DNA of 64,000 nt, taken from IMG/VR virus record IMGVR_UViG_3300020446_000001, positions 62,001 through 126,000 of that record. One strand, given 5' to 3'. The notes beneath the pieces are model-generated. The model ran no database searches, was not told the DNA's origin, and saw nothing but the letters and a program-made list of their open reading frames with translations. Shown here piece after piece: positions 23,602 through 50,672 of this stretch. Origin of the DNA: a virus. The position numbers and the translations under genes are program-made. Every line of letters starts with the position of its first letter. Positions within the stretch are counted from its first letter, which is position 1.

Positions 23602-23718
23602 TGAATAAGGCTGATAGATGTCCCACATATTAAGAGCGTGACGCAATGGTGATAGCAACTTGCATCAAAATGATGGATTTTGCTTTTTTCCCGAGCGATG
23701 GTGCTATTTGGCTGAACC

Positions 23719-26513: not shown

Positions 26514-29500
26514 TCAGCCGTTTGAAGATTCACGCACAGCCATTGAGTCAATTGTCTGGAACAAACCTAATGCCATAGCGTGTCGACCATGTTTATTATG
26601 AGCATTTTCCATCTTTACATTTGATTTAATTAGTTCAATAATATCTTGCAATGCTAATTCATCCATCCATACTGTGTTAGGTTTTGAGCCTCCACTTGGC
26701 ATCAACGGTGATAGTGCATTTGTCATCGCTTGGTCGACATCGTGTACCGTACCGATATCTTTGTACAACAAAAGTGCTAACAAAATATGCATGTTTGAGA
26801 CTCTTCCAGAAAACCCATTTATGTATTGTCTAGCAGCATCTATGAAAGATTCTGTCGCACCTGAAGAACGGAGCATGTCTAATTTATCAGGGATTCCGGA
26901 AAATCGTTTCTTTCCACTGTGATTTGAATCGGGCAAGTATACTCTAACAGTGTTGCTGGCTTTTTTAGTAGATTTTTGTCGTGGGTCATTGCGGTCTACA
27001 TGAATTAACTGTGGTTGAATCAAATCCATTCCGATTCTGAACCTAGTTATTGCTCTTTCAAGGTCTTCATTCGACAAATCTTCCAAATATGCTGAATTTA
27101 ACGGATGGTTTAGTGAAGGGTTCTGTTTACTATCTAAAATCATCATAGGAGACAACTCGAAGCATTTGTACTCAGCATAGTACTCAGGGATAGCTTTGCA
27201 CATTTGTTTGTTGATATATCTTGTTTGGTCTACAACAAGGAACGGTTTGTCACCATTCTTCTCTTGAAATTCGGCCTCAGAGGCATTGAACACCGATGCA
27301 ATATCTTTCTCGAATTCTCCGGCGATTTCAGCCATCTCCATAACTTCAAATCTTTCACTTTTGGGAAAGTGGAACCAGTCGATACGATCTGCCATGACTG
27401 TAAAATGGTCGCATATTCCAAGGTTGGTAAACATTCCATGATACACCATGAAATCCTCTGGAGATGATTGCGAGGGCTCCCATGCGGCAGGGTGAGTATG
27501 GTAAAATGCATCGGCATCCATCATCATTCTGCCATCTACTCTCGCTTCATTCAAGTGTGGGTGACCTTTTTTCCAGTAAAGTATTCCATCTTTCGCATAG
27601 CCGCACCCCTCTCCATAATTTTGACATTTTCTTGCTAGTTGCATGAGAAAAGCATGTGAGCCTATTTTTCCTTCTAGCTTCTCTTTTTTGAAAATCCTAT
27701 CGATTTGTTTTTCAGTCATAGGTTTATGATCTTCGATGTACTCTTTTCCGTGACTGTCTATTGGATTAGATAGCACTCTGTTGGCTTGACCGACCCCCCT
27801 CATTAGAATGTTGCCACTTGGCATTTTGTCTGCTGTGAATTCAGTCGATGCCGTTATGTGATAAGGTATTCTCTTAGGGCTAGGGACGACTTCTTTTCTG
27901 CGGAGGAATGAAAATTCTTTTAGTAATTCGCGTCTGTTCATCTTCCTCTTAGGTTTAATGTCTATTTCCCAATCAAAATAATACTCTTGATTTCTTTTCA
28001 TCATTCGGCGTTGGACTTTAGACTTCAAAACCTCATACTTGTCTGTTTTCATCCCTTTCTTAGGTATGCCGAGGGCTTCTGCGAACATCTTGGCAGTTGG
28101 CTTCATAGGAGTCCCTACAGGGTTCTGTCGTTTGGAGGTTTCAACAGTTTGATTGACGATTATTTCGTCATAAAGAGGGTGCTCCTTTCCACGAATGACA
28201 ACGGTATGTTCTTCCCCATACAATTCTAAGTTGCCTCTAGTTTCTAGACGCAAACGAGGTTCGCTTTTCTTGTCAGGGAAATGTTTCAATCTAGCATAGC
28301 CATTGACTTGAACTTTGTTTTTCGCGTAGTAGTGTTTGCCGCCCGTTTCCACAGATATGATGTATTGTGGTTGTTTGGCAGCATTAACAACGGTAAATCC
28401 AGCCTTTTTACGGAACATGTTGATTCTGATTATTTTGCCATATGTTTTGTCTAATTTGCCCGATGGTGGTTTTTCTAAAACCCCAACATCTAATTTAGAT
28501 TCTGCCCCATTTGAAGTTACTATAACGGAGGCTCCTTTGACAAACTCTCCTGTCACATCCATAGTAAATTGTCCAGTTTTTGGAATAGCATGTACTGGAG
28601 GGTTTGTTTTTACTCCTAATTCTGCTAGTAATTTTTCTGATTTTTCCTTACTGTTTACTGAACCGATGTTAGACTCTTTAGCCTTTTTCTTCACATCTTC
28701 TAGTGAGATTCCCGCTTTTTTGGCAAGTTCTACAGTTTCTTGAAACCAGTTTTTATCTTGCTTTTTGTCTTGTTTTTTGTCTTGTTGTTGATTGGTTTGT
28801 TTCTGTATTTGAGGAAGGAGGTCGCCCATCACTAGCCTTGACACTGTGGTTGTCAACTGTTTAGGTCTGTATGTGGATTTTTTCGCTTGACTCGTTTGTC
28901 CTGCCGGAGGTCTTGAACCGATTCCGGGCCTTTGGTGACCAGGGTTAGTTTTCAAAGTGGTCGCATCTAAAACCATGTCGACAATTTTTTGTTGTTCGTC
29001 TTCACTTATGTTTTGAGCATTATACATCAAAACTACTTTAGAGTTGGATTGGAACTTCATAGTTATGTTTTTTCTTTCGGGCGGAAACATGGTAAGATAT
29101 CCACCACCTGCCGATGAGGTTTGGTTCCAAGCTTTTTCTGTGAAACCGTAATCCTCTAAGTTCATTTTTAGACGATATAATGGGATACTTCGGCTTAGGT
29201 CGAATCTAAGCACCATTTGTTGAATGACTGTGCCGGGAGGAGGGTTGGATTTTACCTCGCCGCAGAAGAATTCAACTATTGCCTCTGCAATAGGGAATAG
29301 ATCTTCATCTTCTCGGATTTCAATTAATTCTGATTGAGTTAGGCCCGCTTTCGCACCTTTTGTTTGGATATAATTTCTATGGTCTGCTCTTTCGATAAAT
29401 ACAGAGAACCCTGATGAGGCAAGGTGGTCGGCAAGTTTTTGTGTGTTTTCCTTAACTTGTTTTGGATAGTTTCTGTTTGTGAATAGCACTACTTGGTATG

Positions 29501-32500
29501 CATTCCACTCTGGATGGTTTGGTGGATATGAATGTATATCTAATAATATTGAACATTCCTCAAGACTATCGTTAAGGTTTTCATGGAATTCTGAGTCTTC
29601 TGCTTCAACCCTGTTAAGGTCTAAGAATGAACGGTTTATTTTCCCTACCAGCATTTTCACTTTTTTGCCTTCTGCTCTCATCCGACTTGCTAGTGCGGTG
29701 GCTAGAGGCATTGCTGCATGATCCGTGTGATGGAAATGTTCGGCAGTCGGAGCTTCTGATGCGTGTGGCACTGTCATTAAGATGGCACTAGTACTAGCAG
29801 GAGGGTTCTCCGTCAATGATTTCCCACACAGTTCACATGAGACTATCCTAGTTTCTGGTTCATCTGATGAACGCATCTGTTTCTTTTCTTCATTCCAATA
29901 TGGAGAGCCACATCCACAGTGCGGACTTTCAGAGGAGAGTTTGCCTCCTTTTTTGTAACAAATCAAACTTCGGCGTCTTCGGCGGACATCAATGTCTCGT
30001 GGTTTTGCCTTTCCAAGTCGTTGTAAGTTTTCACGGCAAACTTGGAGATACTTAGAACGGTCTGCTTCGGCTGCGGCTGGCGTAGAATATAACTGCGCTG
30101 CAAACACATCTCCTAACGGCTTGTAAATGTGCTTCAACCGAGTCTCCATCGACATGTGCATAGGCACCCTCTTTATTCTCTCTAAAGTAGGTGGTGGATT
30201 GAATAAGCGTTGTTGACCTGCTTGCATTCGTCCCTCTGCTTTTTGTTTATTGAAATCGACCTTCATAGCATGGGCTTGCTCATACTGGTCTGCGTTGATT
30301 AGAAATACATCTCTTTTCCAAGGTATAGACAAAGTTTCTGTGACTGTCTTCATACCTGCTTTTTTCATTTGTTTCTTTACTTTTGCACTATAATAAGAAA
30401 AATCGTGCGCGAATATACCCTCATTTTCTTTGAGATATTGGGACAAAATTTCTTGAGGCAAAAGATTGCCGTATATGTCTGGGTTAGATAATATGAAAGG
30501 CATCGTGAATTCAGGTTCAAGTAGACGGCGAGGGTTAGATAGCCATTTACCTTCGCCCTCACCTGCAACTTGAGATAAGCGTAAATCTTGGGGATTCAGT
30601 TCTTTGTCGCTACGATATCTTTTGAAAGATGGTTGAAACAACGCTGGCGCCCTTTTTGTGCCTACCTGAGTCATAACGCCGTCAATCATTCTGTAAACTG
30701 GTTTATCCCCCCAATTCAAAGCTCGATACTCAATTTCTGCAACCATCGCAGTCTCGTTAAAGAGTGTTGGGTCTACGGCGAACATCATCCCCTTCCCTGT
30801 GTCATCGTGGTTTGTCGACATTGAAGGTTCACTTGCAACATAATGACCGCCCCATTTTCGGCTATCGGAATCGTCTTTGATTGGCACCTTTCCAACTCGA
30901 AGAGTTTGTTCTATTACTTTACGATCTTCAACTGTAAATCCTGTGCCAACATTCCCTGAGTAAATGTAATCTCCTTTTTCATCCATAAATGCGAGAGCCA
31001 AACCTCCTGCTATATCTTCGAAAGCACCACCTCGACCAACTCTCTCACCTGATGAACCGTAATAGTATCCGATTATTGCAAGGTCGGCGGTCATGCCCCC
31101 CTTTACTTTGAATGTTGATTTCTTTCCAGTAGGGAATCTTAAAACTGCACCCTCAAACTCAGGCTCTAACATTCCCTCCCTCCACAAGGATTCCAGTGGA
31201 GATTTCCCTTGACCTTGTTCCATAGGAATAGGGAATGCCGATTTACCGCCTTTGAGCAGTGTCCCTACGGTGGCAATCCGTGTTTCGTATGGCGTATCGC
31301 TCATATCAACTCCATCTAGCATGAGAATGTCAAAGGCTGCATACCGAATCCGCTTTTGTCTTTCAAGTGTCGATGAATCTCCTGTTGTTTTGATGATTGA
31401 AGCCACTGTTTCAGAACGGCCTTCTTCATCTCTGTCGCCACCAGTCATAGGCAACATTTTGCCTTCTTTATCAACTGCAAATAATTCACCCATAATCCAA
31501 GCTTCTTTCACTTTCTGCTTCTTGAGTAGTTTCGTGATTTCTTCGGTAATGTGGAAGTTGGCTCGCCACCTGTCATACCAGTTCCAAAGAACTGTTTCAT
31601 TCCCATCAAAGTGTGCGAGGACCCCTTCGCCATCAATCTTCAAAGTCGCAATGTAAGGAGTTCCGTCTTCTTCCAATCTGCCAGTCCAATATTCATAGTC
31701 TGTTTCCCCTGATTTGAATGTAGACTTTTTCCATTGTCGGGCTATGAATGGCAAAGGAGAGAAATTTGGATCGTCAACTGGAGTAAATGTGTCTTTGTAT
31801 CTTGAACCGTATTGTTCATGTTTTTCGTTCGGCTCTCCACTTATCGCTTTTCCAATGTCAACCTGCTTTACTTTTCCGTCTCCCAAATATAGTTGTCCAT
31901 GTTCTCTTGTTTGCGATCTTAATGGTATTTTTTGTGAACCCGTCATCATTGTTGCTGGCGGATTGCGCTTAGTTTTCTTCTTCATCTTCTCAATGAACTT
32001 AGCATATACTTTTTGCGCGGCTTTTATTCCAGGAGTTTGGTGTGCATGAAATCTTGCTCTTTGTTCCATAGCCATTGCTGCTTGTATCTTATGAGCATGA
32101 GTTTTACCGGAACGCTTGATTATGTTTATTGACTTAATAGCAGTTGCTTTATCTTTGAACCCTAAGCCTTGTATTGTGTTTTCTTTATCCTCATCATCAA
32201 ACAAGTCTGAATGTTCACTCTTAGGTTGTCCTTCATACTTCTTGGGTATTCTATGTGCGCCACCATGAGGGTTTGCTAAAGCTTCTTGCCACTTTGAATC
32301 AAAACCGGGTTCTATTACCGCAACTAACATCTCATTCGATTTAACTGGGTCCGTTTCAATCAAAAGTTCGACTACATCATTTTCGTATTTGAGTTTCAAA
32401 TATCTAGTTTCATTTTGCTCCGTTGCTATTTGCCTTATGGTGTCAAGAAGTTCAGGGTCATTTGCTACTTTAAGTGCGTATTCTATGGCTTCCTCGGTGG

Positions 32501-33893
32501 TATACCCTGAGCCCATATCTTCTTCAAAATCTTTAGGACTATCTTCATGAGCGGGATTGGTTTTTGTTTTGGTTTTACTTTCCCTCCAACACACTATGCA
32601 CCCTGGCCCACACACTCTTGACGGCGCTCCATCTCCGCCGTCTTCCTTCGATGTATTAGCAAAGTTCTTTGCATTCATGAAAGCATCTCTTTCGGTATCA
32701 TCTTTGAATGGTTTGTCATCCCAATTCCATGTTTTCTTGTAATTTTCTTTCATATATTTGGTGACTGATTTTTCGTGTTCTTTCATTCCTTTTATGTTGT
32801 CGTCGTGGACTTTTTGCGAATCAGAGTACCACTTTGCAGAGGGGACGACTGAGGGGTCAAAGGAATATGCAGTGGGTGGAAAAACGCCATATTTTTTCTC
32901 TGGTAGAACGGGATTTGCTTTGATTAGCCCTGCTTCAATCGCAAGTTGATAGTCTCCCATCTTTTTGTTGCCCTTCTTTACTGTGTTGCCCAATGTTACA
33001 AAAGAATAAACTCTTCCTGCCGCCCATTGGTGTTGTTGAACTCCGGGTCTGTGTCCAGTTCTCCACGCAGCCAAACCCTTATCGTACACTTTTTGCAGTA
33101 TACGCTTCTTGATCTTTGTTGCTTTTGCTATCTTGTCTATGAATTTGCCCTTTTCTGGTAATGGACCATACATTTTGATGAACTTTTTCTTGTATTTACT
33201 TGGTACTGTTTTGTAGCCTCTTGCTGTTGCTTGTATATCAGATTTCCAATATTCGTATGCTTTTGGATCATCTATATCGTACTTGTAGCCTTTGTCGATT
33301 TCCTTGATCGCAATCTGCATCTCTTCCTTCGTCAAGCCCTTTAGGTACCGCTTCGGAATCGTTTTGCCTCCTGGGGTTTTCTTTGGCGGATTATTCTGTA
33401 CCTGTTGAACCTCAGTTACAATCCCTTCAAGCATGATTTCAAATGGTGTGAATTGTTCATAGTCAAGTTGGTTAGATTGGAATGGTTTTCCCCCCTCTTC
33501 TGTGTTTACAGCGATTGTAATGTGCGGGAATTTGACTTTAGGGCTAATTGGATGAGGAGGTTCAACCCTCAAAGCCATCACTTTGTCATTAAGTCCGTAA
33601 GACACGCCTCGAAGAGTAACTGTTGAACCAAGCGGGTATGTTGGAGAATAGTCGTGTTTACCTTTTGGATGAGTAAGTTCGCCCATAGTAATAGTCATGT
33701 GATGAGCAAACTCTGTCCACCCATTCGGTAATTCAAAAGCAGATAGTAGTGCATTTCTTGACTCAGGAGTCAAGACAACGCCAGTGTAGCTGACTGGATT
33801 AATGAGGTCTGCATATCTTAGCCATGGGTGTGTTTCAACACCTTCGCCGGGGAAAAAGGGCGTGACTTTGTTTGGTAAATCCCCTATAATCAT
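26514..33893 (-). CDS. Giant multidomain protein: 2H, ligase, FGase-like, JAB
   Basis: 2459 residues; ATG at 33893 follows GGGGTGA. In order: (1) residues ~30-140 with two HxT-type motifs (HMTI 65-68, HITI 124-127), as in 2H/LigT phosphoesterases; (2) ~170-445 unknown basic region; (3) ~645-1115 ATP-dependent ligase, motif I KIDGEG with Lys752, then 'MGELFAV', 'AAFDILMLDG', 'EGAVLRF' and 'TFKVKGG'; (4) ~1363-1550 N-formylglutamate-amidohydrolase-like ('VPHAS', 'DLNR', 'LLDIHSYP'); (5) ~1650-1925 unknown; (6) ~2045-2255 JAB/MPN metalloprotease with YHTHP at 2131-2135 and a later S/D; (7) ~2260-2459 helical. An Asn-Pro motif recurs at 168, 327, 446, 541, 644, 1120, 1137, 1232, 1363, 1550, 1650, 1764, 1924, 2043 and 2258, often at domain edges. 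It may be a polyprotein. Confidence 0.85.
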   Translation of the reverse strand: MIIGDLPNKVTPFFPGEGVETHPWLRYADLINPVSYTGVVLTPESRNALLSAFELPNGWTEFAHHMTITMGELTHPKGKHDYSPTYPLGSTVTLRGVSYGLNDKVMALRVEPPHPISPKVKFPHITIAVNTEEGGKPFQSNQLDYEQFTPFEIMLEGIVTEVQQVQNNPPKKTPGGKTIPKRYLKGLTKEEMQIAIKEIDKGYKYDIDDPKAYEYWKSDIQATARGYKTVPSKYKKKFIKMYGPLPEKGKFIDKIAKATKIKKRILQKVYDKGLAAWRTGHRPGVQQHQWAAGRVYSFVTLGNTVKKGNKKMGDYQLAIEAGLIKANPVLPEKKYGVFPPTAYSFDPSVVPSAKWYSDSQKVHDDNIKGMKEHEKSVTKYMKENYKKTWNWDDKPFKDDTERDAFMNAKNFANTSKEDGGDGAPSRVCGPGCIVCWRESKTKTKTNPAHEDSPKDFEEDMGSGYTTEEAIEYALKVANDPELLDTIRQIATEQNETRYLKLKYENDVVELLIETDPVKSNEMLVAVIEPGFDSKWQEALANPHGGAHRIPKKYEGQPKSEHSDLFDDEDKENTIQGLGFKDKATAIKSINIIKRSGKTHAHKIQAAMAMEQRARFHAHQTPGIKAAQKVYAKFIEKMKKKTKRNPPATMMTGSQKIPLRSQTREHGQLYLGDGKVKQVDIGKAISGEPNEKHEQYGSRYKDTFTPVDDPNFSPLPFIARQWKKSTFKSGETDYEYWTGRLEEDGTPYIATLKIDGEGVLAHFDGNETVLWNWYDRWRANFHITEEITKLLKKQKVKEAWIMGELFAVDKEGKMLPMTGGDRDEEGRSETVASIIKTTGDSSTLERQKRIRYAAFDILMLDGVDMSDTPYETRIATVGTLLKGGKSAFPIPMEQGQGKSPLESLWREGMLEPEFEGAVLRFPTGKKSTFKVKGGMTADLAIIGYYYGSSGERVGRGGAFEDIAGGLALAFMDEKGDYIYSGNVGTGFTVEDRKVIEQTLRVGKVPIKDDSDSRKWGGHYVASEPSMSTNHDDTGKGMMFAVDPTLFNETAMVAEIEYRALNWGDKPVYRMIDGVMTQVGTKRAPALFQPSFKRYRSDKELNPQDLRLSQVAGEGEGKWLSNPRRLLEPEFTMPFILSNPDIYGNLLPQEILSQYLKENEGIFAHDFSYYSAKVKKQMKKAGMKTVTETLSIPWKRDVFLINADQYEQAHAMKVDFNKQKAEGRMQAGQQRLFNPPPTLERIKRVPMHMSMETRLKHIYKPLGDVFAAQLYSTPAAAEADRSKYLQVCRENLQRLGKAKPRDIDVRRRRRSLICYKKGGKLSSESPHCGCGSPYWNEEKKQMRSSDEPETRIVSCELCGKSLTENPPASTSAILMTVPHASEAPTAEHFHHTDHAAMPLATALASRMRAEGKKVKMLVGKINRSFLDLNRVEAEDSEFHENLNDSLEECSILLDIHSYPPNHPEWNAYQVVLFTNRNYPKQVKENTQKLADHLASSGFSVFIERADHRNYIQTKGAKAGLTQSELIEIREDEDLFPIAEAIVEFFCGEVKSNPPPGTVIQQMVLRFDLSRSIPLYRLKMNLEDYGFTEKAWNQTSSAGGGYLTMFPPERKNITMKFQSNSKVVLMYNAQNISEDEQQKIVDMVLDATTLKTNPGHQRPGIGSRPPAGQTSQAKKSTYRPKQLTTTVSRLVMGDLLPQIQKQTNQQQDKKQDKKQDKNWFQETVELAKKAGISLEDVKKKAKESNIGSVNSKEKSEKLLAELGVKTNPPVHAIPKTGQFTMDVTGEFVKGASVIVTSNGAESKLDVGVLEKPPSGKLDKTYGKIIRINMFRKKAGFTVVNAAKQPQYIISVETGGKHYYAKNKVQVNGYARLKHFPDKKSEPRLRLETRGNLELYGEEHTVVIRGKEHPLYDEIIVNQTVETSKRQNPVGTPMKPTAKMFAEALGIPKKGMKTDKYEVLKSKVQRRMMKRNQEYYFDWEIDIKPKRKMNRRELLKEFSFLRRKEVVPSPKRIPYHITASTEFTADKMPSGNILMRGVGQANRVLSNPIDSHGKEYIEDHKPMTEKQIDRIFKKEKLEGKIGSHAFLMQLARKCQNYGEGCGYAKDGILYWKKGHPHLNEARVDGRMMMDADAFYHTHPAAWEPSQSSPEDFMVYHGMFTNLGICDHFTVMADRIDWFHFPKSERFEVMEMAEIAGEFEKDIASVFNASEAEFQEKNGDKPFLVVDQTRYINKQMCKAIPEYYAEYKCFELSPMMILDSKQNPSLNHPLNSAYLEDLSNEDLERAITRFRIGMDLIQPQLIHVDRNDPRQKSTKKASNTVRVYLPDSNHSGKKRFSGIPDKLDMLRSSGATESFIDAARQYINGFSGRVSNMHILLALLLYKDIGTVHDVDQAMTNALSPLMPSGGSKPNTVWMDELALQDIIELIKSNVKMENAHNKHGRHAMALGLFQTIDSMAVRESSNG
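28743..28790 (-). repeat. Short DKKQ coding repeats
   Basis: TTGCTTTTTGTC/TTGTTTTTTGTC units encode 'QDKKQDKKQDK' within a Gln/Lys linker of the giant protein, between a Thr/Pro-rich segment and a small helical domain. Confidence 0.5.
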
Positions 33894-33897
33894 CGTC

Positions 33898-34083
33898 TCA
33901 CCCCACAAGTGCCTCTAACACATTGAATTTAGCATCTTTCTTGAATAACATCGTGTGTCCACATTCTGAACAACTGATGGCTTGGAATTTCTTGTTTGAG
34001 TAGTTGAATAACCTGCTCCATTTGCCTTGCATGATAACTGTGTCTGATTGCAAGTTGCTACTTCCACATACTATACACTTCAT
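33898..34083 (-). CDS. Zinc-ribbon protein, 61 residues
   Basis: The start at 34083 has GGAGGTGG directly upstream and overlaps the previous stop (ATGA). CxxC pairs near the N-terminus ('CIVCGSS') and in the middle ('CSECGHT') frame 'WSRLFNYSNKKFQAISC'. This is the layout of a widespread small archaeal/bacterial zinc-ribbon family of nucleic-acid-binding proteins. It sits between two giant genes. Exact function unknown. Confidence 0.7.
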   Translation of the reverse strand: MKCIVCGSSNLQSDTVIMQGKWSRLFNYSNKKFQAISCSECGHTMLFKKDAKFNVLEALVG

Positions 34084-37000
34084 TTTTCCACCTCCACAAT
34101 CCCAAACCGACTCTTCTCGCGTGAACCAACCCATGACACATCTGGACAAGGAGGCATCGGTTCTGGATCTACTTTGAGGGCATATCGCCAAGGGTCGTGG
34201 CCCCAAATCCAAAGTCCGAGTAGTTTCCTTTTTGGTCTGCCTTTGTCATCTAGATAAGCTCCTTTCATAGAACGGTGTCTTGTGTTGAAATTGATTTGTT
34301 TTTGAGCCCATTGCCAAAAATCTAACATAATGCCTCTCCCCCTATCCTTTGAGCGTGTTTTGTGCCAATCTTTTACTGGAGTTTGCTTCATCTTCATGAT
34401 TGCAAGTGCTGAGTCGCGCCCTGATGAGATACCTGCCTCTTTTGCCTCATCTCTGCTCAACCCCGCACGCTTGTTTCCGAGGTCTGAGTCATAGAACCGT
34501 TTGAGTTCCTTGTGAGTCATGTTCACCAATTCAAGCCATCGTTTGCGAATCTCTCGCTTGCGTTCCAAGGAGAGTTCCTTTCCCGGCTTGGGTATGCCCG
34601 GAGGGTTTTTGATTGCCATGTTTCTTTTCAACCATGCAAAGGTCTTCGGGGCTCGCTTGGGAAGTTCAGCAAGCCCCTCGCCTATGCCGGGGATGAAATA
34701 CACATTATCATAGTTGGAAGAAAGTTTTGAGATGTTTTTTAGATCTTCCTTCAGTTTTTTTACATTTGCATCGTATTCAGTATCTGTGTAGTATGCTGAC
34801 TTATTTCTTTTCGGTGCTTTTTTTGTTCTTATGCCAACTGTGTTAGATTCGTCTCGAATTTGTGCTTGACCTTTTTTCCCTTGGCGCAGGTCGTTGTCTC
34901 CAAATACAAACAGCGTTTTTGGGTGTGAACGCACATATTTAGGAGTAATTTTTTCTGGATGGGGGTTGTCTTTTGCATCGATTGATTTGAACAGTTTTTC
35001 TTTTACCCTAGTGCCTGTTTGATACAAGCGGCCAAATTTGTTCTCAACTACTGCATCAAAATCGTAGCGTTTGTAGTCTTTCATCATTTGACTTCCCACC
35101 ATTGCTCTTTGTCGGGCCTCTGCTTCCGTCATTTCTCCACGCTGCATCATTATCTGGAATCTTCGTTCTTCTGTCAGTTTGTTTTTCAAGAATACTGAAA
35201 ACACCATGTTTTCACCAAATGCTTCCCTAAGTTGCCTTAGGCCTGTAAAACTAACATCGACAATAGGATATTGCGTGCCCATTAGTTCGTCATACCTTCT
35301 CCCGTAGTAGTGTCCGTTAGCTTGTTGTTGATACAGTTTGACCCCTTTGGGAGTAGTAAAAAGTCCATTTTCAATCATCTCTTCAAAGGATTCCTTAGTA
35401 ACGAAGTTCTTATCGAAACCATCAACCTCGTCTGGGCGACGGTCTCGTGTTGTGTATGATAGAATAATTTCAGCGCCAGGGAGGCGTTCTTCCAGATGAG
35501 CAGCGACTGTGGACTTACCTGAGCCACTAGGGCCGCAAAAAGCGATAATTGTTGGTTCTGTCATCACAAGAGGGTTTGCCAACACCTGCGCAAGTCCGCT
35601 TGTTGCATCTTCTTTCGCCTTGGCCTTTTGACCGTAAGGTGCTGACGCTGGATGCTTTTTTTGATACCATTTAGGAGCCTTTGCATCATCGAGTTGTATC
35701 TCCCGCTTAAGACGGCGTGTTTTATGTTGTTTTGGTACACGATAGGACTGAACTGCCCATTTGCCATCAATCTTCCCTACGATTGCTTGTACGGCGATTC
35801 CTTGGTCGTAAAGGTCAGAGTATCTCTTGTTTCTGTTGAGCATCCCTCTGGTTTGATTGAACTTCTTTCCTTTCAATGTCCTAAAGCTTGAACCGTCGAA
35901 GATGTCTTGGTCGAACTTCCAAGGCACTTCCTGGCGATGAGCAGTAAATCTTGGATATGGATTTGGTAACGGAGGCCTGTACTGCCAGTCTGTGTAATCG
36001 GCTGGGAGTTCTTTGTCTGAATCAAAGTGTTCCCAATCATTTCTATCCTTCTTGCCGTATAGGTTGTAGTCGCCATATTTGCTCATAGGGTGTTTCTCTG
36101 TTCCTTTTCGTTCAAGCGACCTATCAAGCAGGTCTTTCACGGACAAAGAATCTGTGAGGTCATCACCCTCCCCATCATACTCAATGGAAAATGGAATTGT
36201 TGGCGGGTTCAATTGAACCTTGAAACCTCGATTCGCTGCTTCCTCTAGCCGTCCTGCCAACAAAGGATATTTTTGCTTCCAGTTCGGATCTAGTTCTTTG
36301 TAAGTCCAGCCAAATGTCCGTCCTTGTGGCTTATGTTTCAAAGAGCCCATACGAATTTGGTCGGCAATCATTTGAGTAATGCCGCCTGGATATCTGTCAT
36401 AAGGAGGGTTTATCTGTGCTAGTGGCACTCCAGTGTCAAAGGTTGCATCTTTTCCTTTTCCTCTTTTCTTACCGAAGGCTGCTACCATCTTAGGGTCACC
36501 TTCTAATAAATCCGAGAGTGAACGAATAAACGAGCTTAGGTGTAGAACTCTTGGATTTCTTAATGTTGGCATCCTTCTTTCGCTATGTTCTATTAGATAT
36601 GATGGGCCGATATCAATCATTCCACCGCCTCCAAGACCAACGAGGCGGTCAAGATTGTAGTCTGTTGACTGACCCGGGAGTGTACCTAATGCGCCTTCTG
36701 GTTCAGGACGAAAAGTTGGACCATCGTACTTTGCTCGTTGGTGTTTGAGACGGTATGTAGTTTGCATTTTTTGATTTGCGAAACCATCATACTCAATACG
36801 CAGAATCAAATTGGCTTTTAGTGGATTCACAAAAGCGATATTATCCATAGTGTGAGTAACATGGTTCATCAAATGTTCAAATATTCCTCGCCTGTTCTCG
36901 ACCGTAAATCCTGACAATGTTGAGATTGTACCTAATGGGTAGAATATTTCTGTTTTTCGCCTCTTTTTACCCATTTTGACCCGTTCTGTGTCCATAAGTG

Positions 37001-38873: not shown

Positions 38874-38874
38874 T

Positions 38875-41826: not shown

Positions 41827-41840
41827 TCATCTCCTCCACC

Positions 41841-42044
41841 TTATGACTCATCGAATTCGCGGGAAATAGAGCCTATCACGATAGTACCGAGGAGGTAAGA
41901 TATTGAACCAACACTCGCCATAAAAAGAAGGTGCCCGAGTGGGTTGCTGATTAGCCCATACTTACCGTATGCATATGTGTTGATGTCTTTTGCCAGTGAG
42001 CCCTTAATGTTGCTCAAAGTGGCAGATAATGTGTGTTTACTCAT
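41841..42044 (-). CDS. Single-span membrane protein, 67 residues
   Basis: A polar N-terminus is followed by 'GLISNPLGHLLFMASVGSISYLLGTIVIGS', which gives one long or two short hydrophobic helices. It lies between two large genes in the same operon. Function unknown. Confidence 0.55.
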   Translation of the reverse strand: MSKHTLSATLSNIKGSLAKDINTYAYGKYGLISNPLGHLLFMASVGSISYLLGTIVIGSISREFDES

Positions 42045-42045
42045 A

Positions 42046-42648: not shown

Positions 42649-45600
42649 CAGTCTGCCTCCAACCGATACTTCGCACCACAGTCCTTGCACTTGTGCATGT
42701 GCGGGTTTTGCTTCATTGTGTAAAGCAGACCACCACAAGGCGACTTTTGTACCATGTAAATACAGGTATGACCTTCAAGAACTTTCGAGCGGCGCTGGTC
42801 TTTCATCGAATCGATGTATTCTTTTGCTTGCTTGAGCAGTTTGAAATCCATATTGCCAGATTTCTTCTTGACTCTGTAGCCTTTCTTCAATTTCTTGATT
42901 TGTACGCCTTTGTACATTCGCTTGTTTGGTGGATTTGGTCTTCTTCTTGATACGCCTTTCTTTTTCATAAATTCGTCTATATTGTCTCTTTCGATGCGTT
43001 CACCACTCGGTAAATCAGTGTAGTGGTAATAGTCGTATTTCAAAAATAATTCTACCGCGTCTTTGTATGCGGCAACTGCAGTTTGCATTTTCGAGAGGCC
43101 ACCCGGTAACAACTCAAGTTCCCAACCTGGCTTTTCTTCTACCCAGGAATCATGAATAATATCAAGGTTGTCTGGTCCAACATCTTCAAACTCTCCCCAT
43201 CCCAAATTTCTTAGATATTCTTCTCCAAACTCTTGTGTCATTCTTTCATAAGTACCCTCTGGACCCCCGCCATGGAAGGATGTCCCAATTATTCTAAAGC
43301 CTTCGTCTGATGCACAAAACATGGGGAAATCTGTACGCTTAAAATTAGCAGTCTGTCTTCTAATTGTATCGAGATATCCATCCAACACATAAACTACCTC
43401 TTCCGCACCTACGCTGTCAGCAGGTTGATACATTTGTTCTCCTCGGCTATAATAATCGTATGGCACACGAACCAAACCTGCCGCTAACAAATCTCTGTGT
43501 ATCGATTCAGGGATAGCTTCGGGATGTGAACTCTTTACGGATCTGCGGCTTAGTTCTACCAATTCTTCTTCTTCTTCTTCTTCTTCGTATGTAAGTTGAC
43601 CAATTTCTTCACTCCAGTTTTCTACTAAGATACTCTTGGGGTCAATAAGTGTTCCTCCGTCTCCATGTTCAATTAGTGCTATAATATTGGTTCCGTCTGG
43701 TTCAGCTATAGCCGCCAAGAATAATATTTCGCCTTTACTAGACATTTGTACTAAATCATCATTCGTTGCATATGCCGGTTTGAATTCTGGCTTCAATGCG
43801 TCGCCTATGTCACTATATGTTAGTAATTGAAACTTTGGCCTCATTTGGTCTAAGCCTTTATACCTTTCTTTGTCAGGCAAAATTAGGTTAGGAAAGTGTA
43901 TGGTTAGTAGTTCAGGATAGAGTGTCTCGTTCAAGGGCATGTCCTCCAATACTACTTCTTGATTTGCTTTTTCCAATGCTTCCAGTAGGAACTCTTTTTC
44001 AACAGTATTGTAGGTTGGTTCGGACTTCTGCGACTCATCATCAATGGCTGGTGCTTTCTCGCCAGGACTTTCCTTAGAAATCAAAGGAGCGACAGTCTCT
44101 TTCGCTTCATCAGGAGTTTTTTTGTCGAAGTCGATTATTGCTTGTATTGCCCCGGCTGCCTTTGCAGCAAGTCTATCTCCTTGTTTTGTATAGTAAGTTT
44201 CTGGATTGGTTATTATGCGGTTGGCTGCTGTGACGATGATATCTCGAAGGCTTTCATCTACTATAGTGCCCATGATATCGGGATCATCCGATATATCTGC
44301 GGATTTTTTGATTGCTGCTTTGAGTTTATTAGGCACTTTGCCATTGGTTTGTTTGCTGTATTTTTCCATCCACTTTTTCAAGATCTTAAATGCGCTGGAA
44401 GCTGTGCCTGATTTCATAGAATCTATTGAACCTACCAATTCTTCGAGGCCTTGGTAGGCTTTTTCTGTTTGAGCCTTCTCCGCAGAAGCAGTTATCGTTT
44501 CTTCTGCTTCTACTTCAATCGCCTTTATCTTATCAATTTCATCGATGAGAGCCTGCGCTTGATTGCTCTGTTCCTCGGGCAATGTGTCGACAAAGTGCTG
44601 CAAATAATCCTTGAGCACTCTTGCAATAGTCTCTATTTCAGGAGCGAGGTTCTTGTTTTTGGAGTATCTTGTCAGTATTGTTGTGAACGATTTCACTGCT
44701 GTTTCTAGTTTCGCAGTATCTTCAATGACTTTACTGCTCATGGATACGGTTGCTCCTTCTAATTTTTCTTTAGTCTTTTTCAGTGTTAGTTTCGTTGTTA
44801 GTAGTAGTAAGTTGAGTGCTCCTAATTTTCTTAGGTTACCTTTCTCATCAGTTTCTTCTGCTAAACGGAAGGCTGACTTTGCCGCAGCCAAGGTTTTGAC
44901 AACATCGTCAAACACATCCTTGATTGTATCAATAGATTCTTCGCCTGTTGCAAGTTGAGCCGTCATTGCTGCCTCAATTTTCTTCTTTTGGCTTTCTGTC
45001 AAGGCTTTGATTTTTGCTTTTTCCCAATACTTTGTACTGACTTCACCCTGCTTGTCTTTTGCAAGGAATGGTAAAATGCTTGGAGGGCGGGCCACCTTTC
45101 TTCGTTTGAGAACTTTTCGTTCTGGATCGTATGGCGTTAATGTTGTAAACAATCTGCCATAGCCGGCGAGATAATCCTCAATTCGTTCTAATTCTTCTTT
45201 TTCGATTTCAAGTTCATTTGCGGCGTCTTCATCAATAGCATCAGACATTTCTTGTACTTCAACCGCACTACCTTTCAATTCCTCTAATTTTGTTAAGAAC
45301 TTACTGAGTGCTCCATCTTTTTCACTGAGATGAGAAAGTGTTAATCCGATTGCTTGGTCTGTTCGACTTTTTCCTGTGCTATCAAACACCCCAAGTAAAA
45401 GAAGTATAATCAGGTATTCTTGAGCGTTGATTTCATACCCCATAGACTCCATCGCTTGGTTTCCAATCAAATATAGTAGGTCGTGGACTTCTAGTTGCAC
45501 ATTTTCGTTTGCACCAAGCATAGACCAGTATTCATCAATTACTTGCATGGTAGGAATCATCCAACCACGGTTCCAACCGATAGGAGGTAAAGTAAACCCT

Positions 45601-47087
45601 CTGTTGTGTAGTGGGAGAAGCATTTGAGTTCCAAGTGTAGGCTTGCCCTTTACGGACTTTTGTTGCAAGTTTTTAGGAATCTCTGCTACTTTGGATTTAC
45701 CATATGCACTAAGATATTCATGTTGCGCTGGAGAGATGAACAAATCTTTGGGTTTTATTCTAATCTTTTCGGGTTTTTTGTTAGGCGCTCCAAAGTATAC
45801 TCCTGTTACACTGTATGTCGTAGGATTTTCCATTTTTTCCGAAACTTCTTTTTCGTCTAGCATCCACCAGTCTCTGTTTTCTTCTGTTTGAGCATCTTCC
45901 GGCTCTGGTAAAGCGCCAGTGTCTTCATCAAATCTCAAAGTCAGTGGACTTTCTGCCAGTACACTAACTGCGGTTCTAGTCTTGAGGAACATTTGAGGTG
46001 CTTTGCTTTGGTAAGCTTTCAGCATTGAACGAGCGGTGGCTTGGTTACTACGGAGTCTTTGAAGTCTTGATGTGGATTGCCTTAGTCCGAGCAAGTATTT
46101 TTTGAAGAAGTCTAATTTCTTTGGAGCCCTTGCTTCCTTAGCACTGAAAAACATCAGTCGCTCTCCTCGGAACAGATGGTCTGGGGACGGCATGAGGTAA
46201 TCTATCATCTTGTCAAGTGGCACTTCGTTTTCGTCATCTCTTTGGAACCCTGGCACCATCAATTCGATGAATGGTGCATTACGCTCCCTTACTAAATGGT
46301 ACAACGCAATCATTTCTCTAAAATCGTTGATGTGAGTTCTTGTTAAGAATATGTGATTGTCGATGAACGGAAATTGTCCCAAATTCAATGTTTTTCCTTT
46401 TCTATCCTTTACTGTTCCAGCAATCCCTAATATTTCTGATATTCTTTTCCTTAGGCTCGCTTTGAATCTTGAATCTACTTGAGCAGACCTAGGAGGCTTT
46501 ATTCCCAATGCTTGGTATGCAATTTTTTCACGGCTTACTGGTTGGTTGTTTGGACCAGTCAATATTTTGGCGACTGGTGAAGGAATCGCTCTCAAAGGTT
46601 CTGTGCCACTTGACATCTTAGCCATTGTCAAGTCAATCGCCGCCCGTTTACCACGACTTGACATCATGTTCGCTAATTCAAGCTGAGTAGTTTCCGGAAT
46701 GATTTTTCCCAATGTAGTCAACATGTCCTCTCGTTGATCCATACCTGCGTCAACGATTGCGCTTGCGACTGCCTCCGAGGGGTTGGATTTCACTTCCTCA
46801 ACGCCCCATTCTGTAGTTGCTAACCCGACTGTAACTTCGCCTTTGTTTGCATCTTGCATATCCAAAATCTCGTTGTGGGTTTTCATTACAGGCATCGAAC
46901 CGGATTTCGGTAGAACAAATCTTGTTCCTTTGATTTGGATTTCTGGATTTGATTTCTTTACCGCTTGTTTCTTGTTTTCTGCATCTTTCATCAAACTCAT
47001 GATTCTAGTTGATTGACTCTCTCCCTTGCGGTATTTTGGGGTAAATTCAATCGCAACTACCTTTCCTTTATGCTTCATCATCATCAT
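42648..47087 (-). CDS. Giant helical protein, 1479 residues, with NP motifs
   Basis: The ATG overlaps the upstream stop. The N-terminus (1-46) contains 'VVAIEFTPKY', a module also found near the end of the 47084 protein. Asn-Pro motifs lie at 47, 102, 1385 and 1461. Residues ~100-640 are mixed alpha/beta; ~640-1050 are strongly helical with coiled-coil character. The end has a small basic domain (1385-1460, 'MYKGVQIKKLKKGYRVKKKSG') and a CxxC zinc knuckle after NPH (1461-1479). No enzyme motif is recognised. The modular ends suggest several mature products or an extended virion protein. Confidence 0.7.
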   Translation of the reverse strand: MMMMKHKGKVVAIEFTPKYRKGESQSTRIMSLMKDAENKKQAVKKSNPEIQIKGTRFVLPKSGSMPVMKTHNEILDMQDANKGEVTVGLATTEWGVEEVKSNPSEAVASAIVDAGMDQREDMLTTLGKIIPETTQLELANMMSSRGKRAAIDLTMAKMSSGTEPLRAIPSPVAKILTGPNNQPVSREKIAYQALGIKPPRSAQVDSRFKASLRKRISEILGIAGTVKDRKGKTLNLGQFPFIDNHIFLTRTHINDFREMIALYHLVRERNAPFIELMVPGFQRDDENEVPLDKMIDYLMPSPDHLFRGERLMFFSAKEARAPKKLDFFKKYLLGLRQSTSRLQRLRSNQATARSMLKAYQSKAPQMFLKTRTAVSVLAESPLTLRFDEDTGALPEPEDAQTEENRDWWMLDEKEVSEKMENPTTYSVTGVYFGAPNKKPEKIRIKPKDLFISPAQHEYLSAYGKSKVAEIPKNLQQKSVKGKPTLGTQMLLPLHNRGFTLPPIGWNRGWMIPTMQVIDEYWSMLGANENVQLEVHDLLYLIGNQAMESMGYEINAQEYLIILLLLGVFDSTGKSRTDQAIGLTLSHLSEKDGALSKFLTKLEELKGSAVEVQEMSDAIDEDAANELEIEKEELERIEDYLAGYGRLFTTLTPYDPERKVLKRRKVARPPSILPFLAKDKQGEVSTKYWEKAKIKALTESQKKKIEAAMTAQLATGEESIDTIKDVFDDVVKTLAAAKSAFRLAEETDEKGNLRKLGALNLLLLTTKLTLKKTKEKLEGATVSMSSKVIEDTAKLETAVKSFTTILTRYSKNKNLAPEIETIARVLKDYLQHFVDTLPEEQSNQAQALIDEIDKIKAIEVEAEETITASAEKAQTEKAYQGLEELVGSIDSMKSGTASSAFKILKKWMEKYSKQTNGKVPNKLKAAIKKSADISDDPDIMGTIVDESLRDIIVTAANRIITNPETYYTKQGDRLAAKAAGAIQAIIDFDKKTPDEAKETVAPLISKESPGEKAPAIDDESQKSEPTYNTVEKEFLLEALEKANQEVVLEDMPLNETLYPELLTIHFPNLILPDKERYKGLDQMRPKFQLLTYSDIGDALKPEFKPAYATNDDLVQMSSKGEILFLAAIAEPDGTNIIALIEHGDGGTLIDPKSILVENWSEEIGQLTYEEEEEEEELVELSRRSVKSSHPEAIPESIHRDLLAAGLVRVPYDYYSRGEQMYQPADSVGAEEVVYVLDGYLDTIRRQTANFKRTDFPMFCASDEGFRIIGTSFHGGGPEGTYERMTQEFGEEYLRNLGWGEFEDVGPDNLDIIHDSWVEEKPGWELELLPGGLSKMQTAVAAYKDAVELFLKYDYYHYTDLPSGERIERDNIDEFMKKKGVSRRRPNPPNKRMYKGVQIKKLKKGYRVKKKSGNMDFKLLKQAKEYIDSMKDQRRSKVLEGHTCIYMVQKSPCGGLLYTMKQNPHMHKCKDCGAKYRLEAD

Positions 47088-50000
47088 TGTCCACCCCCCT
47101 GTTGGAAATGTACTATTTTCTTTGAAGAAGGCACTCTGGCACGGTACATTATGTCTCCATCGATTTTGTAGCGGTCTGGTCGGGCTCTAACTGTTTTACC
47201 TTCTAGTTCCACAGCAACGCCTGGAGTAGTGAAGACTTTCTTCACACCCTCATGGACTGCAATGTCTACTACCCTTTTACCTGCAGAACCGGATTGCCTC
47301 ATTTTTCTTGCTGTTCTGTCTGAAATCAAACGGAAACCTCCCATGCCCAAGTTTGTTTTGAATTTTGGAGTGCCATAGTATCTCTCGACTTCGGATAGTA
47401 AGTTCTTCATGCCTGTGTGAGCATCACTGCCTTTCTTTGCTAATATCTTGCCATCATCTCCTTGACGGACTAAAATATGTGGAATCATCAATAGCCAAGG
47501 TACGAATTCATTGTTGTCTTTTCTTGGAGCTTTTATCATCTTCAATGCTGTTTGATTGCCTTTGTAAACCACATAGGAGTCTCCTGTTATGCCTTCACCT
47601 TTCTTTTTACCTTTCTTCACGCGACCTTCTTGCGCTTTTGAGCGAGTTGATGTCTTTGCAAACTTATCATACAATTTTTTGATTTCGGGATCGGTCTTTG
47701 CTATCATCTTGAGCCACTTTGCATCTTCTCTTGACTTGTGTATAGTCAAATCAGCCTTTGGAGTCAATTCTATCGCAATGGTTTGACCCATTGAACGACC
47801 GCCACCTTTCGCTGGATTAGATTCTGGGAATGGTGGAGGCTCGACCAATTTTTCCATCTGTTCCTCAAAACTTGGATAATACCCTGGTTGAGTCATTTCT
47901 TTGATAGATGTCTCTGCTTTGTTTGGAGTATACGAGAAAACAAATCCATAATACGGGATATTTATTGGCGATGTAGGCGAGTATGAGCCGATTCTAAAAT
48001 TATCATCCGGGAATTTCTCACTATTCTGTTGTGCAGTCCGAGCAACCTCAATCTCAAATTCTCCATTGTACATTACTCCTAAATCGAATCCGATTTGGTC
48101 TAATTTTTGGCCGGTGTCGGTGGCAAAAACGGATTTCACGAAGTCCTCTAATTTGTCATAGTTGAACAAGGCACGAATCCCCAACAATTTGAGTAATGCA
48201 GCGTGACCATGGGTGCCCAGCCGTTGATAGTTATCGTCCATGAAAACCTGTTTACCTTTTGAATATCCAGTGAATATTTGATTAGAATTACTGAGCGGGC
48301 TTATTTTGCCAAAGCGAGCAGGCATTCCGGCGAGGAAAGCTCCCCTTCTGTCCTTCATTCTCACCGTGTCATTATATTCGTCACCGTAGACCTCATCGAT
48401 ATCCTCAAGGTCTAACGCTAATGATTCAAGTGCCGGAACAAATACGATATGGTAAACATCTTGTTTGGCGTAATCCATGTAAGCCTTCAATGGTTCGTCA
48501 AGGAAAGTTTCCGCGAATTCTTCTAGATTTTTTGCATATGCGCTACTTCGAGCTTCTTCTGCCTTTTCCATGTACTCTGGACCGTCAAACGGAACATTCG
48601 ATAGAGTGTCTACAAGTATGTAATCGCCATCAGCGTGAAGCACTACTCCTGGCATTTGAGCTAGTAATCTTTTGGCTTGTGCCTTGTTTGTCCCTTTAGG
48701 GAATGCTGCCTTCAAAGGTTTGAGGCCCGCTGCGCCGCCTTCCTTCTTTAGAATCTTTTTGACTGGTTCAATGTAATCATGGTAGTCCACGCCAAGAATG
48801 ATTCGGCGCTTTGCAGATCTGCGGCCAAGTAATCCAGAAAGGTCAGATGTTTCATCTTCATCTACATCGGAAGTTTCTGACGGTTGCATGGCTTGTATGT
48901 CTGCGGTAAGTTGTTCCTCTGCTGCCATTCCTGTAAGGTCTGTCGGAGCCTCTTGGGGTTTAGAACGATCTGTGAAAGATTGAGCCGGTGCTTCTGTTTT
49001 GTCAAACAACCCTCCGTAGTCTTCGAATATTATGTCTACCTGTCCATATACATGGTTGCCGCCGTCTTCAATTTTCAAGAGACCATTAGTACTCGTTTTA
49101 GTTTCTTTTTTGTCGGAATCATTACCTTTGTTTCCGCCACGATTTCTTTTTTTGCCGTGTTTATTCTTGACAGAACGCCTACCAGTAGCCCTTACTGAGG
49201 CAGTGCCTCCGTGAGGTCTAATAGATACAAGCATGGTCCCTTTAGGTACTAAGTCGTCGAAACCACTGTCAACTCTTGCGTGTATCAAAAGTCGTACTGT
49301 TCTTTCCGATTCATCTAAGCCTTTGAATGAATTTTCTCCAACCTTTGTCGGGCGGACGGCGGCTGATGTCGGTACAGTTACTTTGTTTTTATTTTGTTTT
49401 TGGTTTAAAGCAGCGAAAAAGAACGGCCAATCTGTTGTGATTGCTACGGTAGTTTTGTTCTTGAAAACCCTTGAGCCTGGAGTTCCTTCGGCTGGTAAAG
49501 GTGTTCCGACAACTCCATTTTCTGCTATTTGGTATGCCGGACCAGACATAAGATCTCTAATTGCGGAAATACCGGGCCATCCTCCATCTGGACCTACTGT
49601 TTTATCAACTGAAACTAGAAGTTGTACATTCGGCCCTTTGAGTGCGATTTTTTTATTCCTCACTGTTGGCGCTGCTGCGTGTACAATGAACATTTCACTC
49701 AATCCTAATTGGAAAAGGTCAGGTGCTAAACCATACTCAAGTTGCAATTTCTCAATGCCTATCCTAGCACTGGCGTAATCGCCTCTTTTGTAAGCGGAAA
49801 CTGCGCTTTGGGCTTCTGAAAACGCATCAAGGAGGTTCGCGCCAAAGGTTCCATCTGTCAACATTTTTCTGACTTTGCCTTGTGTACCATGCATCATTGC
49901 GAGCCTGAATCTTTCGATGTTTCCACTGTCAACGATTCTTTGCATCACTTGGAGAGCGTCGTGCTCTAACGGCGAAAGTGCAACGAAGTCTTGGAACAGT

Positions 50001-50662
50001 GCATCGTACATATTCCGGTTTTCAATAAATAATTGATTTAGTGTGTAGTGCGTGTAAGTTCTTTGTGGAAGCATGTTTAGTAGTTCTATGTGTAAACCCG
50101 TCAAATCGTGAATAGATACTCCAGCAGGTAAAGAAAGGGGTTTTGCTTTTTTTGTTGTTGCTCCTTTGCTATCTGTCTTTTCTATGATGCTCTTCCATTC
50201 TTTTGATGTAGAGCGGGTTTTTCTAGCAGTAGAAGTGCTTTTTTTGGTGCCCCCGATACACCAATACAGTAGTTCTCCCATTTTCAAAGCTTCATCTTTC
50301 GGGTAGTTGTCTGGAATGTTGTTTAGGTATTCCTCATGATTGATGTCGTTACCGCCCCAGTCAACGAAAAATAACGCCAAACTGGTTCGTGCTTGTTCTG
50401 GAATATTTTTCACTGCCGTGTATTCTTTGGCTTTTGCCGTTGTTGCGTTCTTTCTAATGTGGGCGAGCATGTGGTGTAGTTGAAATGCATAAATCTCTCC
50501 AGTAGGATTTGATTTAACGCCCGACATTTTCGTCATTATTTGGTGCGCAGGAGTGCTAACAGGACTGGAACGCTCGTGTAATAGATTTTGGATTTCTTGA
50601 TTGTGCAACTGCTGACTCGCCCGCCTCTTTGAAGTTCTTTTCTTTGTGGATTGTCGAGCCAT
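47084..50662 (-). CDS. Giant protein, 1192 residues, with NP motifs
   Basis: The ATG at 50662 is preferred over a GTG at 50671 because AGGGTG lies eight bases upstream. A basic N-terminus ('ARQSTKKRTSKRRASQ') precedes 'GVKSNP' (Asn52). The middle has a basic, RG-rich linker ('RRSVKNKHGKKRNRGGNKG') and a 'GRRSAKRR' segment before a second folded region. At 949 'ESNPAKGGG' introduces a C-terminal domain that starts 'TIAIELTPKADL', matching the N-terminus of the downstream giant protein. No catalytic motif is recognised. Confidence 0.7.
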   Translation of the reverse strand: MARQSTKKRTSKRRASQQLHNQEIQNLLHERSSPVSTPAHQIMTKMSGVKSNPTGEIYAFQLHHMLAHIRKNATTAKAKEYTAVKNIPEQARTSLALFFVDWGGNDINHEEYLNNIPDNYPKDEALKMGELLYWCIGGTKKSTSTARKTRSTSKEWKSIIEKTDSKGATTKKAKPLSLPAGVSIHDLTGLHIELLNMLPQRTYTHYTLNQLFIENRNMYDALFQDFVALSPLEHDALQVMQRIVDSGNIERFRLAMMHGTQGKVRKMLTDGTFGANLLDAFSEAQSAVSAYKRGDYASARIGIEKLQLEYGLAPDLFQLGLSEMFIVHAAAPTVRNKKIALKGPNVQLLVSVDKTVGPDGGWPGISAIRDLMSGPAYQIAENGVVGTPLPAEGTPGSRVFKNKTTVAITTDWPFFFAALNQKQNKNKVTVPTSAAVRPTKVGENSFKGLDESERTVRLLIHARVDSGFDDLVPKGTMLVSIRPHGGTASVRATGRRSVKNKHGKKRNRGGNKGNDSDKKETKTSTNGLLKIEDGGNHVYGQVDIIFEDYGGLFDKTEAPAQSFTDRSKPQEAPTDLTGMAAEEQLTADIQAMQPSETSDVDEDETSDLSGLLGRRSAKRRIILGVDYHDYIEPVKKILKKEGGAAGLKPLKAAFPKGTNKAQAKRLLAQMPGVVLHADGDYILVDTLSNVPFDGPEYMEKAEEARSSAYAKNLEEFAETFLDEPLKAYMDYAKQDVYHIVFVPALESLALDLEDIDEVYGDEYNDTVRMKDRRGAFLAGMPARFGKISPLSNSNQIFTGYSKGKQVFMDDNYQRLGTHGHAALLKLLGIRALFNYDKLEDFVKSVFATDTGQKLDQIGFDLGVMYNGEFEIEVARTAQQNSEKFPDDNFRIGSYSPTSPINIPYYGFVFSYTPNKAETSIKEMTQPGYYPSFEEQMEKLVEPPPFPESNPAKGGGRSMGQTIAIELTPKADLTIHKSREDAKWLKMIAKTDPEIKKLYDKFAKTSTRSKAQEGRVKKGKKKGEGITGDSYVVYKGNQTALKMIKAPRKDNNEFVPWLLMIPHILVRQGDDGKILAKKGSDAHTGMKNLLSEVERYYGTPKFKTNLGMGGFRLISDRTARKMRQSGSAGKRVVDIAVHEGVKKVFTTPGVAVELEGKTVRARPDRYKIDGDIMYRARVPSSKKIVHFQQGGGQ

Positions 50663-50672
50663 TGAGAACACC

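Follow-up and report, generated by a model that had tools for sequence, protein, structure and literature searches.

In bacteriophage T4, gp21 cleaves after L/I-X-E and removes capsid-targeting leaders (PMC9026906). In the heads of phiKZ and SPN3US (gp175/gp245), many cuts are made after a short motif during head maturation, and the cargo is ejected. Polyvalent proteins are very long injected-type chains of many unrelated enzyme domains, for which embedded peptidases and release by cleavage have been proposed; archaea have few of them, and nearly all those longer than 1,000 amino acids (aa) are bacterial (Iyer et al. 2017, PMC5512222). A text search of that paper found no boundary motif for polyvalent proteins. 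Here we analysed a window of 64,000 nucleotides, bases 62001–126000 of a 127,570-base marine IMG/VR virus record (IMGVR_UViG_3300020446_000001, hereafter G000), which encodes four giant proteins rich in the dipeptide Asn-Pro (NP). We show that NP marks the junctions between separable modules of these proteins, and that cassettes are shuffled at NP across six related viruses. We infer that the host is archaeal, probably Marine Group II, because an archaeal-type (group II) chaperonin is encoded beside the giants and the closest relative of the virus is a 128-kb contig within a bin labelled Euryarchaeota archaeon. Clade 1 Marine Group II viruses typically encode such chaperonins (PMC5332604).

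All four giants are real open reading frames (ORFs). Names beginning with W refer to the window virus, and those beginning with X (G002, 56.8 kb), Y (G004, 128.8 kb) and V (contig 65 of G005, the 128-kb closest relative) to related viruses; coordinates are those of the window unless another locus is named.

26514..33908, minus strand: giant polyprotein W2464 (2464 aa), TTG start with ATG at codon 6, at least eight cassettes joined at NP; 17 NP against 6.0 expected
34080..38915, minus strand: giant polyprotein W1611, with guanylate kinase and DUF7831; 9 NP against 3.3 expected, six of them at block borders
42648..47087, minus strand: giant W1479; 6 NP against 2.5 expected, NPP at residue 1385 being a block border (X1005 919, V1258)
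47084..50671, minus strand: giant W1195; an insertion lacking in V873 has NP (residue 952) at its right edge

NP enrichment was assessed with 300 composition-preserving shuffles. The four giants contained 34 NP against 14.3 expected, a number never reached in the shuffles, and no shuffle was as high for NPP (10 vs 0.7 expected), [ST]NP (12 vs 1.6) or VK[ST]NP (4 vs 0.007). The same test gave no enrichment of DP, SP, QP, KP, GP or PN in the giants. The 41 other proteins of the window had no excess (NP, 32 vs 26.9; NPP, 1 vs 1.5), and a 983-aa protein within the giant cluster had no NP at all. The initial annotation, which had suggested this comparison with shuffles and non-giant proteins and would have taken an NP frequency explained by composition as evidence against its reading, is thus borne out: the giants are enriched far above expectation. 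Its count of about 28 copies was too low. The four VK[ST]NP sites it named are all present, at residues 1555 and 1769 (26514-33908), 102 (42648-47087) and 55 (47084-50671), and its residue numbers point to the right sites, although they were counted from the ATG five codons past the TTG (1363, 1550, 644, 1120 and 2043 correspond to 1368, 1555, 649, 1125 and 2048 here).

The following cassettes and junctions belong to the two largest giants.

32559..32915, minus strand: cassette W2464 332-450, also X2789 1423-1581 and V1921 991-1136, each NP-bounded
31965..32273, minus strand: cassette W2464 546-648 (RIPKK..KKTK), common to T4-like phages; also L072 1280-1384
30537..31964, minus strand: DNA ligase cassette W2464 649-1124 (PF01068/PF04679), also X2789 2165-2554 and V2020 46-539
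29247..29807, minus strand: FGase-like cassette W2464 1368-1554 (PF05013, E=5e-5, under the curated cut-off), also X1107 103-438
29241..29246, minus strand: junction EVKS-NP-PPG, W2464 residue 1555, with NPP likewise at V2020 1032
28599..28604, minus strand: junction GVKT-NP-PVH, W2464 residue 1769, a block border with X1107
28125..28604, minus strand: cassette W2464 1769-1928, 51% identical to X1107 730-886; both begin K-x-NPPV
27123..27767, minus strand: JAMM/JAB-like cassette W2464 2048-2262 (HTHP..SxxD), starting at NP in W, X, Y and V
36405..36410, minus strand: junction AQI-NP-PYD, W1611 residue 836, insertion point of an extra V1921 cassette
34968..35576, minus strand: guanylate kinase cassette W1611 1114-1316, recognised by Pfam and by AlphaFold with Foldseek (TMt about 0.7)
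34608..34967, minus strand: DUF7831 cassette W1611 1317-1436 (Pfam E=4.5e-36), also the X2789 C-terminus and Y2151 708-829
34083..34607, minus strand: cassette W1611 1437-1611, C-terminal in W, internal in X2789 (1581-1755), 76% identity

Pfam identified DUF5824, an ATP-dependent DNA ligase, a TFIIS-type Zn ribbon and a weak FGase match in W2464. The domains proposed earlier for this protein fared unequally: the ligase was confirmed, the FGase-like domain was recognised only weakly, and the JAB domain showed its HTHP..SxxD motif at the predicted place with neither Pfam recognition nor a PDB sequence match. Polyvalent proteins combine 2–15 unrelated domains per chain, and here ligase, guanylate kinase, Zn ribbon, FGase-like, DUF5824 and DUF7831 domains occur in two adjacent ORFs. 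Pfam scans detected none of the hallmark polyvalent domains (MuF, DarA, ArdA, MPTase, PBECR and others), although distant versions could escape such scans.

We compared the giants of W, X, Y and V in full. X2789 and X1107 contain parts of both W2464 and W1611 in a new order, and the pairs Y2151/Y985 and V2020/V1921 likewise carry W2464 and W1611 cassettes in changed order. The edges of the rearranged blocks coincide with NP. For example, W1611 836-900 corresponds to X2789 2560-2637, W1611 1437-1606 to X2789 1581-1750 (76% identity), and Y2151 1100-1234 to X2789 858-990. V1921 817-920 is an extra cassette that starts with NPPTILYHGTTRSRAK, has NPP on both sides and lies exactly at the NPP of W1611 836. 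Among 84 distinct breakpoints in eight polyproteins, 43 fell within 5 residues of NP, whereas 5.7 were expected and the maximum among 20,000 random placements was 15. Conversely, 56% of NPs lay near breakpoints, compared with 2-26% for other dipeptides; in the eight main polyproteins, 53 of 95 NPs sit at demonstrated breakpoints, and some NPs within cassettes look incidental (e.g., W1611 residues 227, 697 and 787). Because local alignments might be drawn to a conserved NP, we repeated the analysis with NP masked, either alone or together with the one or two residues flanking it on both sides, and 42-44 of 76-78 breakpoints still fell within 10 residues of NP (about 9.6 expected). Masking of NP ahead of the alignment gave 42 of 76 against 9.5.

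Two further relatives, G006 (L042, 72.8 kb) and G007 (L072, 61.5 kb), were found after the junction hypothesis had been fixed, and the test was repeated on them. In these, 10 of 19 breakpoints were within 10 residues of NP (P=0.0002), and 10 of 15 after masking (P<0.0001). A conserved structural protein (window 16332-17099) is common to W, X, Y, V, G006 and G007; it is also carried by G003 (60.9 kb), whose record contains nothing that matches either of the two largest giants. Further scans of phages and of genome contigs revealed no additional relatives. The earlier proposal that NP lies at domain edges of the largest protein holds: both the enrichment and the border placement of NP are strong for the 2464-aa and 1611-aa giants, while the 1479-aa and 1195-aa giants have only one NP each at a demonstrated border (1385 and 952).

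Since cassettes do move and their breakpoints lie at NP, the NP codons might themselves be a DNA recombination site, with the amino acids a by-product. We consider this very improbable. Asn codons at NP are background-like (AAC 47%, AAT 53%), all four Pro codons are used with only a mild bias (CCT/CCC up, CCG down), and no DNA word is fixed, so selection acts on the protein. Conservation of NP and of K at position -2 at the protein level also speaks against it. In the alignment of W with V (56% identity), NP was kept at 15 of 21 sites compared with 70 of 154 other x-Pro sites (P=0.035), and conservation peaked at K -2 (0.76), N (0.76) and P (0.86). At the 53 junction NPs, the signal has V/I at -3, K at -2 in 22 and S/T at -1 in 17, and a second P follows directly in 27. 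Overall, the NP pattern is real, strong and conserved over the virus family, and is not an artefact of composition.

The ends of the chains show what NP marks. In W, X and V the JAMM-like cassette runs up to an NP(P), whereas in Y2151 its end is the natural C-terminus (..QISKSKA*), and the C-termini of W1611, X2789 and V1921 stop where another virus carries NP. Terminal cassettes thus have no NP on their outer side, which means that NP marks junctions rather than domains. In an AlphaFold model of W1611 1100-1611, the guanylate kinase and DUF7831 folds are flanked by stretches of low confidence at 1-20, 195-222 and 335-347, and each of these stretches contains one of the three NPs (model positions 15, 218 and 338); Foldseek recognised a complete guanylate kinase in this model. 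The initial annotation would have been contradicted by NPs buried in folded domains, and all three NPs tested lie in predicted linkers.

Two smaller proteins also carry NP.

42046..42738, minus strand: small conserved protein with an N-terminal part, NP, a Lys-rich linker and a C-terminal domain
22315..23658, minus strand: H1-like basic protein; its N-terminal leader closes with LVLV-NPP-K (residue 29) and is conserved across four viruses

The first is 56-77% identical in X, Y and V with NP invariant, and its C-terminal domain is an NPP-preceded cassette in L042 (40% match, residues 1091-1191). The second is a plausible core protein. Its leader ends [LV]-L-[VI]-N-P-P in four viruses and the sequence beyond has diverged, as would be expected of a cleaved leader. 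The protein also contains AAAKKAAATRKRN[AS] repeats; this periodic RKRN[AS] is Asn-centred too and could have some connection with the NP signal. The leader resembles a T4 capsid-targeting sequence, which could suggest that each NP is a targeting tag recruiting cassettes into particles. One tag per chain would be enough for that, and terminal cassettes without an outer NP show that junctions, not domains, are marked, so we regard this explanation as highly unlikely.

A further comparison came from T4-like phages, which carry the same cassettes. The W2464 546-648 cassette and the DUF5824 region are present in Kyanoviridae polyproteins, and the former is 44-57% identical to proteins of S-SM2, Bellamy, P-TIM68, Mosig and G001. 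In P-TIM68, the gene with this cassette lies two genes from the major head precursor. At the borders, KKKTKR|NPPATMM in W stands against KKKTKK|MNEAKEN in Bellamy, and WQERSGIKSNPM in Y against WQERGQKKESVTFRKFNEK in G001. The Kyanoviridae borders (KKTKKMNE|AK, SVKE|S, ELDE|A) are hydrophobic-x-Glu, the T4 gp21 type, and hydrophobic-x-E-[ASK] occurs 28 times in the Kyanoviridae cassette proteins against 12.9 expected. Peptidase_S77, the gp21-type protease, is encoded in all five Kyanoviridae genomes examined. Kyanoviridae copies of one cassette (L008:1501, L009, L012) read (M)SNPRIPRK at their start, with ..EEESNPRIPRK in L009; this may be left over from an exchange with viruses that use NP punctuation.

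A second shared cassette, X2789 858-990, occurs at no fewer than 592 IMG/VR loci, of which we read 74 copies, two from the archaeal family (G006 and G007) and 72 others. The contigs of these others appear, from leaders and neighbours, to be tailed phages. The phage-type copies are mostly proteins of 130-230 aa that begin with a leader, for example MKLILENWKRFLTEA. In 46 of 70 leaders, hydrophobic-x-Glu stood within 7 residues of the cassette, compared with 19 in shuffles (maximum 27). NP was absent from the cassette border in all 72; the only NP-bordered copies among the 74 are those of G006 and G007, both of which carry the structural protein of the archaeal family. The absence of NP from phage borders, their hydrophobic-x-Glu sites and the presence of S77 together argue that, in the archaeal viruses, NP has taken the place of the prohead-protease site. 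With one cargo under two punctuation systems, NP would do the job of the phage Glu site, namely cassette release at particle maturation.

We therefore think it rather probable that the giants are virion cargo polyproteins, separated at [VI]-K-[ST]-N-P-P by a maturation protease. The giants, in which this signal links autonomous cassettes (among them DNA ligase, guanylate kinase, Zn ribbon, FGase-like, DUF5824, DUF7831 and JAMM-like), would be made late and packed as particle cargo; a viral maturation protease would cut at or beside Asn-Pro, freeing the cassettes, and the released proteins would be delivered into the next archaeal host. NP cutting would then be the counterpart of the gp21 sites (L/I-x-E) in T4-like internal head proteins. 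What we infer here is packaging and cleavage, together with the bond that is cut and the protease that cuts it. Of the earlier description of the motif as a processing, targeting or linker signal, the junction role is now supported by shuffled homologues, the structural model and C-termini; processing is a better fit than a plain linker, given that the same borders in T4-like phages carry gp21-type hydrophobic-x-Glu, and pure targeting is disfavoured because NP occurs only at internal junctions.

Among the closest known systems are the T4-type internal head proteins and propeptides processed by gp21, with the same cassettes in single proteins or polyproteins, leaders like capsid-targeting sequences and a short degenerate border signal; they differ in that the archaeal viruses have N-P instead of L/I-x-E at borders and no S77 or S78 match. 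The phiKZ and SPN3US systems differ in belonging to tailed giant phages, in cutting after Glu and in removing mostly N-terminal propeptides rather than separating shuffled cassettes. 2A peptides also place NP near the point of polyprotein separation, and VK[ST]NPP looks like the last part of the 2A consensus D[VI]ExNPGP. A 2A-like ribosome skipping could separate the cassettes in translation; archaeal aRF1 is eRF1-like, and the residues leading up to 1769 (LLAELGVKTNPP) have a superficial likeness to 2A. However, 2A requires about 20 fixed residues, whereas the sequences upstream of the junctions are mutually unrelated; NPGP, with its G-P after NP, and DxE are absent from all junctions listed, the host is probably archaeal, and no archaeal 2A report was found in the literature searched. 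We consider skipping extremely unlikely. FlhB/YscU-type self-cleavage at NPTH was rejected, since no NPTH occurs at the junctions and the flanking cassettes are mutually unrelated, as were inteins, since Asn is followed by Pro, not Cys/Ser/Thr, and Pfam scans of the giants found no Hint domain.

Several observations weigh against processed cargo. Models of S77, S78 and C48 matched nothing in the archaeal viruses (the S77 search detects its target in phages; that for C48 had no positive control), and Peptidase_S77 was found in none of five archaeal-virus records or metagenome-assembled genome. Pro at P1' makes a poor substrate for most proteases. Only 53 of the 95 NPs lie at demonstrated breakpoints, the P value for NP conservation is modest, and the virion location of the giants is argued from phage relatives and conserved cluster neighbours. 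Because a scissile bond is seldom followed by Pro, cutting may occur next to N-P rather than at it. Pfam and PHROGs searches of conserved neighbours and PDB profile searches of three cluster families also yielded no protease. The JAMM-like HTHP..SxxD cassette is the sole protease-like motif inside the polyproteins; we do not claim it as the processing enzyme, because it lacks support from Pfam and PDB sequence searches and JAMM enzymes normally act at ubiquitin-like tails.

Such negative protease searches, and the position of NPs in disordered, Pro-rich linkers, would suit an explanation in which NP(P) is merely a stiff, helix-breaking hinge that spaces cassettes in an intact, uncleaved multidomain protein; Pro-rich linkers are used by many cellular multidomain proteins. 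Yet a hinge needs no Asn-Pro specifically, and DP, SP, KP and GP are not enriched; K at -2 and NP outlast the flanking sequence; phages bear protease-type sites at the same borders; and a hinge makes no sense in the short NPP-ended leader of a small basic protein. We therefore judge the hinge unlikely, while giving it real weight, and prefer release of cargo by cleavage.

Other parts of the record also contained features of interest. Among its products are a TFIIB-like protein and an RNA polymerase protein with an Rpb1 domain. The latter, an 843-aa protein (L003:8480-11011, plus strand), has an Rpb1 domain-5 match spread over residues 82-653, which makes an insertion probable, and is an unusual protein in an archaeal virus. 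Among the proteins scanned, Pfam and PHROGs recognised no terminase, portal, HK97 capsid or other known structural family, and an AlphaFold model of the best conserved structural candidate, that of window 16332-17099, reached a pLDDT of 33 from a two-sequence alignment. On the plus strand, a small GTPase-like protein (window 4773-5501; weak Arf match, NKSD motif) is 47% identical in G003, and a P-loop ATPase beside the chaperonin (window 24118-24876), a possible packaging ATPase, is 48-56% identical in X and Y. ACCGCTCATG lies at dozens of start codons in the early genome half (G000 ~12,900-57,000; L003, L004, L005; minus strand) and is a start-site signal abutting ATG, not a Shine-Dalgarno sequence. 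AACCGCTCATG, with at most one mismatch, has 48 copies in 20 kb of L004, on one strand only (0.25 expected), and is no start signal in the late half, where the window has 1 match (0.8 expected). In Y, one gene (L028:14080-15501) bridges both ends of G000 (L007 end, L003 start), so the record is probably a complete circle, though classed linear; another (L025:10015-18984, minus strand) encodes a 2989-aa repetitive, fibre-like protein (ELN.LDG.T repeats) with no NP excess.

NP cassettes are a variant of the processed-cargo theme, itself known, and by analogy the NP tag is probably the cutting mark of an archaeal-virus packaging system. We put at about even the chances that archaeal viruses kept T4-like cassettes but exchanged the S77 Glu punctuation for an Asn-Pro read by a putative protease, the late polyprotein being an enzyme kit for the archaeal host. 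In an uncultured family of marine archaeal viruses, this punctuation code divides giant "hypothetical" proteins into enzymes open to testing, and it indicates that the same cargo cassettes circulate between bacterial and archaeal viruses under two cutting signals. The reading predicts an Asn-Pro-directed viral protease, and how archaeal viruses arm the cell at entry becomes testable via N-P ends in metaproteomes. If true, it would represent a previously unrecognised class of viral maturation.

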